Shown piece by piece: positions 26,122-41,190 of a stretch of DNA of 64,000 bases; within the stretch, counting starts at the first letter, position 1, and each line of letters opens with the position of its first letter. The notes beneath the pieces were generated by a model that saw nothing but the letters and a program-made list of their open reading frames with translations, made no database searches and had not been told where the DNA came from. The stretch spans positions 5,270,430-5,334,429 of the forward strand of contig NZ_KQ031391.1 in assembly GCF_000966285.1 (NCBI RefSeq), in the 5' to 3' direction. This DNA comes from Pseudofrankia sp. DC12. Its GTDB lineage: Bacteria; Actinomycetota; Actinomycetes; Frankiales; Frankiaceae. The position numbers were made by a program, and so were the translations under genes.

Positions 26122-26197
26122 GCGCCCGTAGCTCAGCGGATAGAGCGAGTGCCTTCTAAGCACTGGGTCGCAGGTTCGATCCCTGCCGGGCGCACCA
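26122..26197 (+). tRNA. tRNA-Arg(TCT)
   Basis: A full cloverleaf: acceptor GCGCCCG pairs with CGGGCGC, D-arm GCTCAGCGGATAGAGC, anticodon stem AGTGC/GCACT with loop CTTCTAA giving anticodon TCT (26155-26157), T-arm GCAGGTTCGATCCCTGC, discriminator A and encoded CCA (26195-26197). It marks the left edge of the IS-rich island, and the frame of the adjacent recombinase ends inside it. Confidence 0.97.
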
Positions 26198-30140: not shown

Positions 30141-31244
30141 TCACGGAAGGGGCCTTGCCCTTGCCGAGAGTCGTTTGATGCCGTTGACGGAGATCGAGCG
30201 AAGGAACTCGGGCTCGCCGGTAATGGTGAGTTCAGGCAGCTGGCGGAAGGCTTCGCGAAAGATCGCAATGATCTCGGCACGTGCAAGTTGGGCGCCGAGA
30301 CAGAAGTGGGGACCGGGTCCTCCGAATGCGAGGTGGGAGTTCGGGGCTCGGGTTAGGTCCAGCCGATCGGGCTCGCGAAAGACCTGTTCATCGCGGTTGG
30401 CGGCGGCATAGAATAGCAAGATCTTGTCGCCTTTCGCGAGACGGTGGCCGTTGAGGGTGGTGTCCCGGGTAGCAGTGCGGCGCATGGTCGCGACGGGTGT
30501 GGTGTAGCGGAGGATTTCGTCGACGGCGGTGGGGTGCATCCGTTCAAAGTCGGCGACCCAGGCGTCGCGCGCGTGGCGATTATTGTGGAGGGTCCAGATA
30601 CCGAGACTGATCGCGTTGCGTGTGGTCTCTTGGCCCGCGAATGCCAATAGGACGAAGAAGGAGGAGATTTCCCGCGTCGTGAGGTGGATCCCGTCGACCT
30701 CGGCTTGGACGAGGGCAGTCAGCAGGTCGTCGGTGGGCCTGCGCCTGCGCTGCTCGGCGAGATCGGTTGCTAGGTCGGCGAGGCTGGCGCCAGCATCGAG
30801 GAACGCGTTGACCGGATCCTGTTGGTGGGGCACGAAGTCGGGATCGCCTCCGGAGACGATCACGTTGGACACCGTCTGGACGCTGGCCCGGTGGCTTTCT
30901 GGAATACCGACAAGGTCGCATATGACCGTGAGTGGGAAGGGCGCGGCCAGGTCGGCGACGATGTCGATATCGCCGCGCAGAGCGGCAGCGGCGACGGTCG
31001 CGGCAGCTGTGCGCTGGATGTCGTAATCCAGGCGGCGCAGGGTGCGGGGAGTGAACGCGGCAGCGACGATCCGGCGGAGCTGGAGGTGTCGAGGGCTATC
31101 GAGGTTGATGATCGAGCCAAAGAACTCGTTGAACTCGGGACTGAGATCATTGACCCACAGGGCACCCTGACCGGAGCAGAAATCAGCCGGGCGGCGGGAG
31201 ACCTCGATGATGTCGCCGTGTCTGACTGTCAAGTGATGCTGCAC
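30141..31244 (-). pseudogene. Cytochrome P450, N-terminus missing
   Basis: The 367-aa frame carries nearly all of a bacterial P450: the I-helix LLAFAGQETTRNAIS, the ExxR region (DEILRYTTP preceded by the K-helix), RDTTLNGHRLAKGDKILLFYAAANRD, and the haem-binding FGGPGPHFCLGAQLAR with its cysteine. It also has the DSPRHLQLRRIVAAAFTPRTL segment. Family members are about 400-415 aa; the first 40-60 residues before RHGDIIEVSRRPADF are missing, and the sequence upstream of 31244 is open but contains no start or homology. GTG 31244 may give a shortened product, likely unfolded. It is followed by no ferredoxin gene. Confidence 0.75.
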
Positions 31245-32763: not shown

Positions 32764-33345
32764 GATGATCGGGGTGTTCGACCCGGCGGCGGCTCGCCAG
32801 GCGCTGGCACGGCGGCTGCGCTGCCCGGACTGCGGTGCGCCGCTGGCGCCGTGGGGCCGGGCCAGGCTCCGTACCGTGCGCGACCGGGGCGGCCAGGAGC
32901 GCACGCGCCCGGACCGGGCGCGCGGCCTGCGCAGCGACGAGATCTGCCGGCTGTGCCTTGGCTGCAGCCGCTGGCAACACAACGGCTCCCTGGCGCCCGG
33001 CGACGCCCGCGACGTCCTCGCCCCGGGACGCCGTCTGACTGCTCGACGTGCCGGTCCCCAAGACCGGGACCGCGTTCACCGAACCGGTCGACCCGATCAT
33101 CGGCCAGGCCATCGAGGCCTGATATGCCCTGCGGCCGGCCCAGCCCCAGCGCCTGGACCGCAAGACCAACGAGTGCGTCGACCTGCTGTTCAGTATCGGC
33201 GCTCACCTGGTCGCCAAGTACTACATCAACATCAACCGCACGATCATCCCGGCGCTCTGCCGCAAGGCCGGTGTCCCCACCGCGGACATCCGCGGCAACA
33301 TCACCAGCCACCGCGCCCGTCGACGATCGCCAGCCAGGGGGCTGG
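32764..33345 (+). pseudogene. Mosaic: DUF6431-like N-terminus joined to a tyrosine integrase remnant
   Basis: From ATG 32764 the frame begins FDPAAARQALARRLRCPDCGAPLAPWGRAR, like the zinc-finger start of DUF6431 proteins. It then passes into GLRSDEICRLCLGCSRWQH, and in another frame LLDVPVPKTGTAFTEPVDP, RKTNECVDLLFSIGAH and CRKAGVPTADIRGNITSHRAR with STIASQ after a further shift. These latter pieces match a common actinobacterial site-specific integrase, C-terminal catalytic half. Stops occur after GRR and in place of a Trp codon (EA-stop-YALRP). The active-site Tyr is not reached. Confidence 0.65.
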
Positions 33346-33365
33346 ACGGCAGACGCGGGGATCGG

Positions 33366-33806
33366 CTACCCGCCGCGGTCGCCGCGTCCTTTTGCCAGCT
33401 CGATCGTGACTCGCTGGTCCGGCCCGGTGGAGCTGCCGACCTCGCCGGCCAGCGCGCTTAGCACGGTCCAGGCGAACGTGTCCTTCGACGGCGGCTCGCC
33501 GTCAAGGCTGTCGACCGAGACGGTGACCCGCATGAGGCGTGGCGACAGCGTGAAGACGCACTCCAGCGCCGATTCCGGGACTGCGGAGATCAATAGCAGG
33601 GCGGAGGCCTCGTCCACGGCGATCCGCAGGTCCTCGATGTCGTCAAGGGTGAAGTCCGCCCGCGCGGCCAACGACGCGGTCGCGGTGCGCAGGACGACCA
33701 GGTCAGCGCCGGCGGCGGGGATGGTGAGCCGCACGACGTCGCGCGGGCCGCCACCGTGGACATCGCCGGAGTTGCCCGCGCCATCGGCTGAAGGCGTCGG
33801 ATCCAC
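33366..33806 (-). CDS. RsbW-like anti-sigma factor / ATP-binding kinase
   Basis: A 146-aa protein of the HATPase_c_2 (RsbW/SpoIIAB) class that would bind an alternative sigma factor or phosphorylate an antagonist. Characteristic is DIEDLRIAVDEASALLLIS, holding the N-box region, and DTFAWTVLSALAGEV near the end. The G-boxes are not obvious. GTG 33806 has GGGGGTAG upstream. In most actinobacteria the gene lies next to a sigma-B/F gene; here it lies between an integrase remnant and a low-GC gene with no sigma factor in reach. Confidence 0.75.
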   Translation of the reverse strand: MDPTPSADGAGNSGDVHGGGPRDVVRLTIPAAGADLVVLRTATASLAARADFTLDDIEDLRIAVDEASALLLISAVPESALECVFTLSPRLMRVTVSVDSLDGEPPSKDTFAWTVLSALAGEVGSSTGPDQRVTIELAKGRGDRGG

Positions 33807-34098
33807 GTTTCTACCCCCAGTGCTGGGTCATTCGCTCCGAGACTCGTCGCCAGCGTCGAGTTCGAGTTGTCCGCCGCCCGCCGGGCACGTACCCGCCCGG
33901 TGGGCTGTTGCCTACATCATCCCGCCACCACTCTGCCGGTTCGTCGTGGGCCATCACCGGCCCCCTTGACCCGCCGACCTACCACGACCTGTGGTTCCAC
34001 TCGCCACCGTCGACACCCGGATCACCCGGGTGTCGATGGACGACGACACCTTCCCCGCGGGCGCCGGCCAGCTCGCCCTGCACTATCGAGTCAGGACA

Positions 34099-34806
34099 CT
34101 AGCCAAGCCATTCCCTAAGCAAGTTAGCCTCTATCCCCGCATCGAGAAGAATAGCTGCACCAATGCCACCATCGTCACCAAGAATTCCCATAAGCAGATC
34201 CTCGGCTAGGACTTGACTGTGGCCCCTCCTTTGGGCTTCTTTTATCATCAGTACGGTAATCACCGTCTGTGCGCGAGGCGTAAGCGTATGGGGAAAGTTC
34301 TCTACACCAGTTCGTTCTCGTGCAGGCGAAACGGCTTTCTTTGCCGCATCCCTGACGGATTCCAAAGGTACTCCAATTCCATTTATCGCTTTGGCCGCAG
34401 AGTTATTTTGATCAGACAGCAACCCAAGAACGAGATGTTCAGTACCGACAAGTTCATGCCCAAATCCGAAAGCTTCAGCGTTTGCGGCTTGCATCACCGG
34501 ATTAAGCTCCGGAGACAGGGAAAGAGGGAGTCTCATCTTGGGAAAAGTGACCTCAGTCGATTTCCTACCCCCAAAGCGCTGCTGCGCCGCCTGCTTGGTT
34601 ACACCAAGACTCTGCCCGATATAGGTCCAGGAAAGATTGGATTCTCTCGCCTCTTGAACGAAATGAAGAATGAGTCGATCAGAGAGGTCCGCAAGACGTT
34701 CAGATATAAAAGAGGCATGATAGAGCTTAAAGCCTATCGCGCCATTCTGCGTCTGACTTTCAACGGAGGAGATAAGATCTTCAAGCGATTCCATAATGGT
34801 GACCAT
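34099..34806 (-). CDS. HTH / Clp N-terminal domain protein, low GC
   Basis: A 235-aa protein with two parts. Residues about 45-85 hold a helix-turn-helix-like segment (LSWTYIGQSLGVTKQAAQQRFGG). Residues about 105-235 resemble the double Clp-N repeat of ClpC/ClpA (ANAEAFGFGHELVGTEHLVLGLL; RAQTVITVLMIKEAQRRGHSQVLAEDLLMGIL). No AAA+ module follows, so it is not a ClpC unfoldase; it may link transcription control to Clp substrates or mimic the ClpC docking face. Base composition is much lower in GC than the rest of the window and codon use is mixed, which points to recent transfer. ATG 34806 is the start. Confidence 0.75.
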   Translation of the reverse strand: MVTIMESLEDLISSVESQTQNGAIGFKLYHASFISERLADLSDRLILHFVQEARESNLSWTYIGQSLGVTKQAAQQRFGGRKSTEVTFPKMRLPLSLSPELNPVMQAANAEAFGFGHELVGTEHLVLGLLSDQNNSAAKAINGIGVPLESVRDAAKKAVSPARERTGVENFPHTLTPRAQTVITVLMIKEAQRRGHSQVLAEDLLMGILGDDGGIGAAILLDAGIEANLLREWLG

Positions 34807-35008
34807 AGCTTATGGCGGACGCCTCGTCAAGGCTCCATTGACGAGGCGTCTTCCTTAGAGCGGAACCCGTGGGTGGGTGTACCCGGCGCCGCGCATCTGA
34901 TGGGGCCAGGTTCCTACCTGGCCTTGTTTCTCCTGGCCACGAGGCCCGTAGACGCTCCGGGGTCCAGGATGGCTTGGAGGGCCGCCGCCGTCAGGCGGGC
35001 CGCTATCG

Positions 35009-35621
35009 ATGAAGGCCGTCGAGTCGACGGCTCTGCGGGCCGAGGCGGAGCGGATCGTCGAGTTGGAGAACGAAATGAAGATCCTTCGGAAGGCGGCGGC
35101 GGTCGAGCGGGTGGTGCCCCCCAAAGCACGGTTCGCTCTCGTGGCGGAACTCGCCGCTGAGGGCGTCCCGGTCAAGCAGGCGTGTCTGATCCTCGGGGTC
35201 TCCCGCTCGGGTTTCTACGACGCGAAGAGCCGGCCGCCGTCGGCCCGGGCGATCCGCCAGGTCTGGCTGACCGATCAGATCACCGCGGTGTTCGAGGCGT
35301 GGCGGCAGACCTACGGTGCGCCCCGGGTCCGCGCCGAACTGGTCCTCGGCCAGGGCGTGGTCGTGTCTCGTAAGACGGTCGCGGGGTTGATGCGCAGGGC
35401 ACGGCTCGCTGGGCTGCCGCTGCGACGGGTGGCGAGGAAGGTGCCTACAGCGGCCACGGTCACCGACCTGGTGCGCCGGGACTTCCACCACGACGGGCCG
35501 AACGAGCTGTGGGTTACCGACATCACCGAACACCCGACCCGGGAAGGCAAGGTCTACTGCTGCCTCGTGTTGGACGTCTTCTCACGTCGAGTCGTCGGCT
35601 GGGCGATCGATTCCCGGGCAT
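35009..35621 (+). pseudogene. IS3-family transposase, 5' part (split by IS66)
   Basis: The 5' piece of an IS3-type orfB: LRAEAERIVELENEMKILRKAA (coiled coil from the orfA end), FALVAELAAEGVPVKQACLILGVSRSGFY, the HTH_21-like TYGAPRVRAELV, and NELWVTDITEHPTREGKVYCCLVLDVFSRRVVGW with the first catalytic Asp. It is cut at 35629 by the IS66 element; the 3' part is at 37250-37626. A proper orfA is not seen upstream. Confidence 0.88.
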
Positions 35622-35629
35622 GCGCGGAG
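35622..35629. repeat. Target site duplication of IS66 (left copy)
   Basis: GCGCGGAG lies directly before the left inverted repeat and is repeated at 37242-37249 directly after the right one; eight bases is the normal IS66 duplication. Confidence 0.9.
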
Positions 35630-37241
35630 GTAACTAGTCAGGCCTCCTGATCTTTTGCTGTTGTCGCAGGTCGGGTCGTTTTGGTGACGATCGGTGTGGG
35701 CGCGGGGTGGGTGCGGTGGGTGACCGTCTCGTAGGTTGATCGTGTGTCTTCCGTCGATCAGCCCGCGCCGTCGTATGACGAGCTCGCGGTGCTGGTCGTG
35801 GCGCAGGCCGCGCAGGTCGCCGGGTTGCGGGCCGCGTTGGAGAAGGCGCACGCCGAGATCGAGGCGTTGCGGGCCCAGGTGGCGACGAGCTCGCGGAACT
35901 CCTCGAAGCCGCCGAGCTCGGACGGGCTGGGGAAGCCGGACCCGAAGTCGCGGCGTGCGCGGACCGGCCGGAAGCCGGGGGGTCAGGAAGGGCATGAGGG
36001 GTCGACGCTGAGGCTGGCCGCGGACCCGGGCCGGGTCGTGACCCATGAGCCGGCGGTGTGTCGGGGCTGCGGGGACGGGCTGGTGCTGGCGGCGGTCACC
36101 TCGGTCGAGCGGCGCCAGGTCGTGGACCTGCCGGAACCGGTCCCGCTGGTCGTCGAGCACCGGTTGGTCGAGCGGGAGTGCGCCTGCTGCGGGACCCGGA
36201 CCCGGGCGGCGGCACCGCGCGGGGCCGACGCCCCGGTCCAGTACGGCCCGCGGGTCGAGGCGACGGTCCTCTATCTCTATGGCGGCCAGTTCCTGGCGCG
36301 CGACCGGGCCGCCGCCGCGATGGCCGAACTGTTCGGCACGCCGCTGTCGGCGGGCACGGTCGCCGCGATGCTCGCCCGCGCCGCGGCCCGCCTGGCCAAG
36401 GAGTTCCTCCCGAGGGTCCGCGACGAGATCGCGGCGGCGCCGGTCGCCGGGTTCGACGAGACCGGGCTGCGCGTCGCCGGGAAGCTGCACTGGGTGCACT
36501 GCGCCCGCACCGAGAAGTACACCCTGCTCGTCTGCCACCTCCGCCGCGGCGTCGAGGGGATGGCCTACCTGGGCGTGCTGCCCGGCTACACCGGGGTCGC
36601 GGTGCACGACTGCTGGTCGCCGTATGACACCTACGTCCAGACGGATCACCAGCTCTGCTGTGCCCACGTGGCGCGGGAGTTGACCGCGGTCGCAGACACG
36701 TCGCCGCCCGACGGCTGGTGCTGGGCGACGCAGGCCGGCGAGGCGCTCGTCGACCTCGAGCGGCTCGCCGCCGACGCCCGCGCCGCCGGCGCCACCGCCC
36801 TCGCTCCCGAAGCGACCGCCGAGCCGCTGCGCCGGCTGCGCCACGCCGTCCAGATCGGGATCAGCCAGACCCAGGCCCGCTCGACGAAGCTGATGCGTAA
36901 GCACAACGCCCTGGCCCGCCGCCTCGCCGACCGCGAGGCCGACTACCTGCGCTTCCTGAACAACCTGGCCATCCCACCAGACAACAACGGGCCGGAGCGC
37001 GACATCAGAATGGTCAAGCTGAGACAGAAGGTCTCCGGCTGCCTGCGCTCCCTCACCGGCGCCCGCCAGTTCTGCGCACTGCGCAGCTACCTCTCGACCA
37101 CCGCCAAACACGGCCTCGCCATGCTCGACGCCCTCGTCCAACTCGCCGAGGGCCGCCCCTGGCTGCCCACCAACACCCAAGCCCCCACCGCCACCGCGTG
37201 ACAACCAGTAACCGTCAGCCAAGAAACACCTGACTAGTTAC
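35630..37241. mobile_element. IS66-family insertion sequence inserted in an IS3 element
   Basis: A 1612-bp element with 13-bp perfect inverted ends, GTAACTAGTCAGG (35630-35642) and its complement (37229-37241), flanked by an exact 8-bp duplication. It carries a single tnpC-type transposase and no tnpA/tnpB, so it is a minimal ISBst12-like form. Intact ends, gene and duplication indicate a recent insertion. Confidence 0.93.
35744..37201 (+). CDS. IS66-family transposase (TnpC type)
   Basis: A 485-aa transposase. Order: an N-terminal leucine-rich coiled coil (LAVLVVAQAAQVAGLRAALEK), the KPPSSDGLGKPDPKSRR basic region with GRKPGGQEGHEG, a zinc-binding CRGCGDG ... CACCGTRT, then the catalytic core with FDETGLRV, VHDCWSPYDTY and the C-terminal FLNNLAIPPDNNGPERDIRMVKLRQKVSG carrying the final Glu, and RSYLSTTAKHG. 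GTG 35744 is the start. The gene is full length. Confidence 0.93.
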   Translation: MSSVDQPAPSYDELAVLVVAQAAQVAGLRAALEKAHAEIEALRAQVATSSRNSSKPPSSDGLGKPDPKSRRARTGRKPGGQEGHEGSTLRLAADPGRVVTHEPAVCRGCGDGLVLAAVTSVERRQVVDLPEPVPLVVEHRLVERECACCGTRTRAAAPRGADAPVQYGPRVEATVLYLYGGQFLARDRAAAAMAELFGTPLSAGTVAAMLARAAARLAKEFLPRVRDEIAAAPVAGFDETGLRVAGKLHWVHCARTEKYTLLVCHLRRGVEGMAYLGVLPGYTGVAVHDCWSPYDTYVQTDHQLCCAHVARELTAVADTSPPDGWCWATQAGEALVDLERLAADARAAGATALAPEATAEPLRRLRHAVQIGISQTQARSTKLMRKHNALARRLADREADYLRFLNNLAIPPDNNGPERDIRMVKLRQKVSGCLRSLTGARQFCALRSYLSTTAKHGLAMLDALVQLAEGRPWLPTNTQAPTATA

Positions 37242-37249: not shown

Positions 37250-37626
37250 TTGGCGACCTGTGCGCTCGGGATGGCGATCGAGTCCGTGGCAGCGACGGGC
37301 AGATTCCCTGCGGGATCATCCACGCCGACCACAGGACGCAGTTCACCTCGTGGACGTTCACCGAACGGGCCCATCAGGCCGGGCTTCTACCCTCGTTGGG
37401 CACCGTCGGGGATGCCTACGACAACGCGGTCGCGGAGGCGTTCTGGGCACGCATGCAGACCGAGTTGCTCAACCGGCAACGCTGGAACACCCGGATCGAG
37501 CTCGCCAACGCCATCTTCGAGTACATCGAGGGGTTCTATAACCGCCGTCGACGCCACTCCGCCCTCGACTGGCAGACCCCGCTCCAGTACGAGACCGTCA
37601 ACCGCCAGCCGACCGCGAACTCCTGA
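37250..37626 (+). pseudogene. IS3-family transposase, 3' part
   Basis: Continuation of the IS3 gene beyond the IS66. Reading across the duplication restores ACAELATCALGMAIES, then a one-base shift gives GSDGQIPCGIIHADHRTQFTS (second catalytic Asp; HADHR instead of the usual HADHG) and VGDAYDNAVAEAFWARMQTELL with the Glu, ending FYNRRRRHSALDWQTPLQY. The frameshift near 37280 shows the IS3 copy was probably already dead or has decayed since. Confidence 0.88.
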
Positions 37627-40454: not shown

Positions 40455-41190
40455 ATGAGCTTGCCGTTCTTGAATACCGAGCCCGGCTACGACGAGGCGC
40501 TGCGTAACTCGGTGTTCTTCGAGCGTGGTCTGCTCGCGACGTCCATCTGCGGCGCGGTCGGCGCCGCGGTGGCCGTGGCGATGCTGCAGGGGCAGGACGA
40601 GGCGGGGGTCGCCTCCGCCGCCGGCATCGCGGCCAGCATGGGCGCCGGCCTGCTGGCGGCCAACCGCACCGGCGGGACCGCCAAGTGGGTCCACCGCGGC
40701 TGGGCCGCGCACTGCGGCGTGGCGGCGGCCGACCTGGCCCGGGACCGGCTCACCGGCCGGCCGACCGTGCTGGAGGGCCGCTTCGGGTTCCTGCAGGCGT
40801 TCTGCGGCGACCGGCGCCCACCCGGACGCCGTCGGCCGCGGCCTGGGCACGGACTGGGAGCTGCCGCGCGTGGTCTTCAAGCCGTACCCGTGCAACCACG
40901 TCACCCACGCGAGCGTGGACGCCGCCCTGCGGCTGCGGGGGGGGCCAGGGGCTCGCCCCCCGCCGACGTCACAGCGATCGAGCTGGGCGTCGCCAAGCCC
41001 GTCCTGCGCACGATCGCCGAGCCACCCGAGGAGCTGGCGAGGAAGTTCCACGACAACGCCGTGAGGTCCCTCCCGGAGGGGCGCGCGGCCGGGCTCGCGG
41101 CCCGGCCGCTCGCCCTTCCTGACGCTCAGAGCGTCGAGGATCTCACCGCGCTGCTGACCTCGGCGGGGGAGTCAGATGACGATCTTGACC
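40455..41190 (+). pseudogene. MmgE/PrpD family gene, broken
   Basis: Pieces of an MmgE/PrpD protein (2-methylcitrate dehydratase-like). From about 40530: ATSICGAVGAAVAVA, ASAAGIAASMGAGLL, ANRTGGTAKWVHRGWAAH, VLEGRFGFLQAFCGD in one frame, then AHPDAVGRGLGTDWELPRVVFKPYPCNHVTHASVDAALRLR in another, and back for DVTAIELGVAKPVLRTIAEP. That runs directly into LARKFHDNAVRSLP, so about 80 family residues are deleted. The first third of the protein is missing. It is non-functional. Confidence 0.78.

Follow-up and report, generated by a model that had tools for sequence, protein, structure and literature searches.

A divergent ClpC2-family protein of probable foreign origin in Pseudofrankia sp. DC12, and an operator shared by HTH fusions to two Clp docking domains

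Introduction

Mycobacterial ClpC is a drug target. Its AAA+-free relative ClpC2 (Rv2667 and M. smegmatis ClpC2; structures 8ADA, 8AD9 and 8B9O) joins a helix-turn-helix (HTH)-type N-domain to a ClpC1-like C-terminal domain. The mycobacterial protein is an autorepressor; cyclomarin, bound by the ClpC1-like domain, releases it from the DNA, and it accumulates as a sponge (PMC10030653). The operator, CGTCAAC-n5-GTTGACG, overlaps the -35 and -10 boxes, and leaderless clpC2 transcripts were inferred in the same study. There, DNA binding was assigned to the C-terminal domain because its surface charge is conserved and an R185A/R189A variant binds more weakly; the crystallized N-domain held residues 4-72 because of proteolysis. 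In M. smegmatis, clpC2 mRNA rose 2.0-fold in the matching arginine variant, 4.6-fold in the dimerisation variant R57A and 263-fold with cyclomarin (PMC10030653). In PMC12913811, three peptides were tested and all bind M. tuberculosis ClpC2, yet induction is reported for the cyclomarin alone, which would make release from DNA ligand specific.

A second described system is the antitoxin RelI (9SDC; PMC13284704), which has a homologous N-domain with the HTH, carries no Clp_N and neutralises the toxin RelS. That source already notes HTH relatives as well as fusions with DUF3887 and with DUF2812, and derives RelI from ClpC2. In this report, we analysed a gene in a 64,000-nucleotide stretch of contig NZ_KQ031391.1 of Pseudofrankia sp. 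DC12, hereafter the window. It shares with ClpC2 the two-domain architecture without AAA+, the operator core over the promoter and the leaderless layout, but differs from it in its low GC, its replaced cyclomarin contacts, a single clear operator where two are usual, and a position outside the main clade.

Results

An intact, low-GC gene for an HTH domain fused to a free ClpC-type N-domain

The open frame is intact over 235 codons on the minus strand (34806-34099). Because the ATG at 34806 falls within what is probably the -10 box, a start at 34794 is likelier, and the probable coding sequence (34099-34794, minus strand) encodes 231 residues plus a stop; the -10 box, the ATG spacing and an operator at -48, as in canonical clpC2, all enter into this choice. 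Domain residue numbers are counted from 34794. Clp_N is matched in two stretches (Pfam, E=3e-19), and the frame ends after this part, without an AAA+ segment. The gene has a GC of 0.50 and a GC3 of 0.47, against 0.715 GC for the window, whereas a second clpC2 gene of the same genome has GC 0.73 and GC3 0.96. The first-pass annotation, which had described a low-GC gene of foreign composition encoding an HTH-type segment and a ClpC N-domain without AAA+, thus holds on the Pfam and phmmer matches, the end of the frame and the base composition.

The C-terminal part is a ClpC-type N-domain with two Clp_N repeats (residues 90-231; 34102-34527, minus strand). ClpC N-domains match it in phmmer (best 2y1q, query 103-232, E=6.1e-17), and the predicted fold, which was to be the check on the Clp_N match, agrees: VIA-align places residues 89-231 on 6pbs_B, a ClpC1 N-domain, at 1.4 A over 139 residues (Z 22.9), and the Clp_N model on 8ad9_B at 2.5 A over 140 (Z 20.0). 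This is the fold of the ClpC1/ClpC N-domains (6PBS, 3FH2, 2Y1Q), except that here it is unattached to ATPase modules. Prediction of the whole protein gave a mean pLDDT of 89.7 and a pTM of 0.66.

The N-terminal domain (residues 1-79; 34558-34794, minus strand; pLDDT 93.6, four helices) is homologous to the ClpC2 N-domain and RelI. With phmmer, residues 8-69 match 8ADA, the solved N-domain of ClpC2 (E=5.3e-6), and a profile of the domain retrieves 8ADA (5.8e-26) and RelI 9SDC (2.5e-14). Its HTH consists of residues 56-63 and a recognition helix at 67-74 (TKQAAQQR; 34573-34629, minus strand), helices that appear in both models. No Pfam HTH family reached its curated cut-off on the window protein, the best being of HTH_AsnC type with 15.2 against 27 bits. 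Structure searches with the N-domain model were weak: Foldseek gave zero matches at E<=0.001, and VIA-align placed Fis on top (Z 4.6, 3.5 A over 68 residues) in a listing of mostly DNA-binding proteins with weak scores, from which 8ADA is missing although sequence profiles retrieve it. The HTH-like segment does belong to a known family, that of the ClpC2 and RelI N-domains, but not to one of unrelated function, the two halves of an objection that the first-pass annotation had raised against itself.

One clear operator lies over the promoter

Upstream of the gene we read a probable -35 box TTGACG (34825-34830), 17 bases, a probable -10 box TATGGT (34802-34807), which includes the ATG at 34806, and 7 bases before the ATG at 34794 (all minus strand), a layout in which the transcript is likely leaderless. 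The operator, CGTCAATGGAGCCTTGACG (34825-34843, minus strand), matches CGTCAA-n7-TTGACG exactly, and its right half is the -35 box, so that the core overlaps this box. Twelve of the 14 letters specified in the published operator are present; the outer six of each half are exact and the inner C and G differ, half-site position 7 being T and G where relatives mostly have C. The site stands at -48 from the ATG, the place of the distal operator in most relatives. Most relatives have two clear sites and the window gene one; at the proximal place (34797-34815, minus strand) there is a degenerate remnant with 11/19 consensus letters against 5/19 at both neighbouring offsets, a weak signal partly driven by the -10 box. 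As a separate observation, the operator symmetry extends to 13-bp perfect arms (34818-34850), and symmetry of at least 8 bp beyond the GTCA/TGAC core occurs in 3/105 sites of the relatives set, the window site included. No RNA family reached its gathering threshold in 33300-35800.

In the 6.88-Mb genome the exact core CGTCAA-n7-TTGACG occurs at three places only. The other two are 28 bp apart, just before the second, canonical clpC2 (L042, from 6553786). Allowing up to one mismatch gives 18 places against 5 for a reversed-pattern control: the three exact ones, two before a ClpX zinc-finger gene described below, and 13 elsewhere. These 13 all lie within some open frame of at least 80 aa, a location that says little in GC-rich DNA, and a start codon of some frame follows within 60 nt in nine of them; a wider regulon beyond these two kinds of gene may exist. 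Within the window alone, 3 matches have up to two mismatches, no enrichment over shuffles (mean 1.97), and for this reason we put weight on the exact site alone.

A divergent ClpC2-family member, probably acquired

We collected 59 relatives with HTH and Clp_N in one set and a further 80, the best 80 of 553 loci found via a recognition-helix pattern, so that other helices were not sampled in the latter set. The fusion, taken at first for an unusual and undescribed system, has the known architecture of ClpC2. Left out before counting were ClpC itself, which has no HTH region (L041, L115), a locus at the same place as another (L043, as L034) and ClpX itself (L089-L090); L252-L256 are also outside the counts. 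Identity to relatives is about 30-41% over most of the length, and no full-length relative above about 41% was found among viral contigs, genome contigs, plasmids, phages and protein relatives. Scans of the viral contigs and the first scan of genome contigs with the window protein, by exact short peptides and so reaching close relatives only, found none. The plasmids gave 13 records, all below 60% identity, five of them covering at least 80% of the query; the phages gave five, matched in the Clp_N part only, of which none covers 80%.

The window protein is, by its sequence, a divergent member of the ClpC2 family. In a tree of 78 of the 140 proteins it stands on a long branch outside a clade of 69/78 rows (99/98). 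This clade holds the second ClpC2 of the genome, which, unlike the window protein, groups with clpC2 genes of related genomes. Given that branch and an identity of 36% between the two, the window gene is not a recent copy of the second clpC2. Base composition and the distant branch together make horizontal acquisition likely, and the gene was probably acquired in this way. A join of the window protein with L113 in the tree (88/67) was set aside as long branches meeting with unsettled bootstrap.

The seven neighbouring frames scanned comprise five of transposase or integrase families, one P450 and one without a match. Two integrase pieces (35009-35650 and 37396-37626) flank an IS66 transposase gene (35744-37201), an arrangement that would fit insertion of IS66 into an older IS3-type element. 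The P450-family frame (30141-31241, Pfam E=2.3e-20) is within the same insertion-sequence-rich stretch, near the two ends of which are a predicted tRNA-Arg (26122-26197) and a predicted tRNA-Ala (41063-41147) that might mark integration ends.

The same kind of site precedes most relatives

GTCA-n9-TGAC is present within 400 nt upstream of the HTH in 65/80 loci of the best 80 of 553 (at least two sites in 56, one in nine), and these loci carry 121 sites in 32,000 nt upstream against 8 in 367,514 nt elsewhere. The exact site is missing within this distance in 15/80; five of the 15 were inspected, and four have a site with three mismatches and one (L152) none. In the set of 59, with the window left out, 54/59 have a site. 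Those that do not are L035, L036, L044, L104 and L113, the last with another kind of repeat instead. L035 and L044 (genomes G002 and G001), which thus lack GTCA-n9-TGAC upstream, also stand apart in the recognition helix of their HTH and Clp_N proteins, IGHRAARERF, and may use another operator.

The same HTH occurs with a ClpX domain and in gene pairs

Allowing one operator mismatch led to another HTH gene in the genome (1597771-1597400, minus strand; L058:1124-1498), with two operators of CGTCAGG/CGTCAAG type 27 bp apart just before its start. In its product, Pfam recognises a ClpX C4 zinc finger (E=1.6e-17); Clp_N is absent, and the HTH is 58% identical to that of the window protein over 33 residues. 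A protein search gave 28 loci with this fusion of a ClpX zinc-binding domain (ZBD) and HTH (L061-L088), in which the ZBD replaces Clp_N; GTCA-n9-TGAC stands before the gene in 25/28, the exceptions being L085, L087 and L088, the first of which also lacks the C4 motif. A search of the open-access literature found no report of such a protein among the papers listed.

Among 21 further HTH loci, hand-picked from a longer list plus L050, GTCA-n8/9-TGAC is found up to 500 nt upstream in 18 (at 379-387 nt upstream of the HTH in L233 and L239) and there is no site at L232, L238 and L242. In nine of the 21, a small HTH frame adjoins a Clp_N frame that is separate but on the same strand, and eight of these nine have n8 sites. 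These pairs (L050 and L265, 6771000-6773500 in the same genome; L242-L247, L250, L251) are, judged from their sequences, ClpC2 modules divided between two genes with TGTCA-n8-TGACA-like sites upstream. TGTCA-n8-TGACA occurs once in the genome and its reversed control also once; only the place of the match before an HTH/Clp_N pair carries meaning. Two other kinds of frame carry this HTH. Proteins of about 120-149 aa (L234-L238) begin WPYPSY...WLGG and have the HTH at their end, with an n8 site upstream in 4/5; frames of 200-212 aa (L248, L249; family f18, whose Streptomyces-like label is a guess) have it mid-protein, with a GTCAAGA-type n9 site before the start.

Residues of the recognition helix track operator position 7

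Where the helix has QK, operator position 7 is C in 404/414 half-sites; where it has QQ, in 17/32; and in the ClpX-ZBD-HTH proteins, with WE, it is G in 96/96. Counted per protein with sites, a half-site without C is seen in 7/110 QK proteins against 8/8 QQ proteins (p=9e-9, kinship ignored); the window protein has QQ, with T and G at this position. Since related sequences are not independent, this covariation is suggestive and not proof. The 8ADA chain stops at residue 72, just short of the recognition helix, and the C-terminal arginines of ClpC2 (R185/R189) are K and R in the window protein. The DNA reader of ClpC2-type proteins is probably the N-terminal HTH and not, as published, the C-terminal domain: the same HTH goes with sites also without a fused Clp_N, helix residues track position 7, and the published crystal ends before the helix concerned. 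The C-terminal domain may take part as well, because R185A/R189A binds DNA more weakly (PMC10030653).

The cyclomarin contacts are replaced

The contact residues F96, F172 and E181 are P, L and T in the window protein. Of 139 relatives, 127 keep F at F96, 134 have F or Y at F172 and 121 keep E at E181, and all three are missing also in a few other divergent members (L091, L107, L113). Binding of cyclomarin in the published manner is unlikely for a pocket of this composition. These replacements make a ligand other than cyclomarin probable, and another ligand, or lost sensing, is possible. They also suggest that ClpC2-type pockets vary between members.

Discussion

While the ClpC2 architecture, autorepression and the cyclomarin sponge were already known (PMC10030653), this study adds a divergent foreign member of the family, an attribution of the DNA-reading role to the HTH, and an operator common to fusions with the docking domains of two Clp unfoldases. 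We consider it likely that the window protein is an acquired ClpC2-family protein that represses its own gene and, as a decoy, imitates the docking surface of ClpC, with a ligand that is probably not cyclomarin. We infer each of its activities by analogy with mycobacterial ClpC2, for which repression, release and protection are published (PMC10030653). The N-terminal domain would dimerise, and its HTH would read the palindrome GTCA-n9-TGAC over its own -35 box, the dimer on the operator repressing the gene's own leaderless transcript. The ClpC-type N-domain would present the docking surface of ClpC in free form and be bound by an agent that targets this surface. Binding would lift repression, and the accumulating protein would soak up the agent and protect ClpC. 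A decoy had been among the possible roles in the first-pass annotation, and the published sponge role of ClpC2 favours it by analogy.

The alternative that survives best, though we regard it as improbable, is a plain autorepressor and holdase that responds, under stress, to ClpC substrates left unfolded or unassembled, with no toxic ligand. The replaced cyclomarin contacts would fit it, as would the approximately twofold induction of clpC2 by heat and the protection of casein by excess ClpC2 (PMC10030653), but the reported heat induction is small. Less probable still is a decaying transposon passenger that has retained DNA binding and lost ligand sensing. Insertion-sequence genes on both sides, one degenerate operator place, the long branch and the replaced pocket all point that way, as against an intact frame, a confident model, and a promoter and operator in register; no second, closely related copy of the gene was found. 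An adaptor that delivers DNA-bound proteins to ClpCP, the other role first suggested, is very unlikely. It would explain why DNA-binding and ClpC-like modules share one chain, but the protein is a copy of the ClpC N-domain and not a ligand of it, and would compete for adaptors and substrates, while the exact operator core, confined in this genome to the places before two clpC2-type genes, gives delivery no support. Finally, we hardly credit membership in a RelS-RelI-like toxin-antitoxin system with the Clp_N part as an extra, for beyond the homology of the N-domain to RelI, no toxin family, the RelS/BrnT type included, was seen in the seven neighbouring frames scanned, which gave mobile-element families, a P450 and one frame without a match.

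Returning to the self-repressor and decoy, the other HTH fusions and gene pairs lead us to a wider but tentative proposal. Actinobacteria may possess AAA+-free guards of Clp unfoldases in which one autoregulated HTH, reading GTCA-n8/9-TGAC, is combined with a ClpC N-domain or a ClpX zinc-binding domain in cis, or with Clp_N in trans. Each guard would sense and soak up agents, whether peptide antibiotics or proteins of phages and mobile elements, directed against the corresponding docking domain. The window protein would be a foreign guard, and its changed pocket and partly changed operator imply that it would face another agent. Literature on ClpC and anti-phage functions held nothing useful among the matches listed.

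These findings matter for the ClpC2 family in three ways. First, they indicate that DNA reading may have been misassigned in ClpC2, as the probable reader is the HTH at the N-terminus and not the C-terminal domain. Second, they predict for ClpX an equivalent of ClpC2 that is controlled in the same way. Third, since their pockets seem to vary, ClpC2-type proteins may reveal as yet unknown agents that target ClpC.
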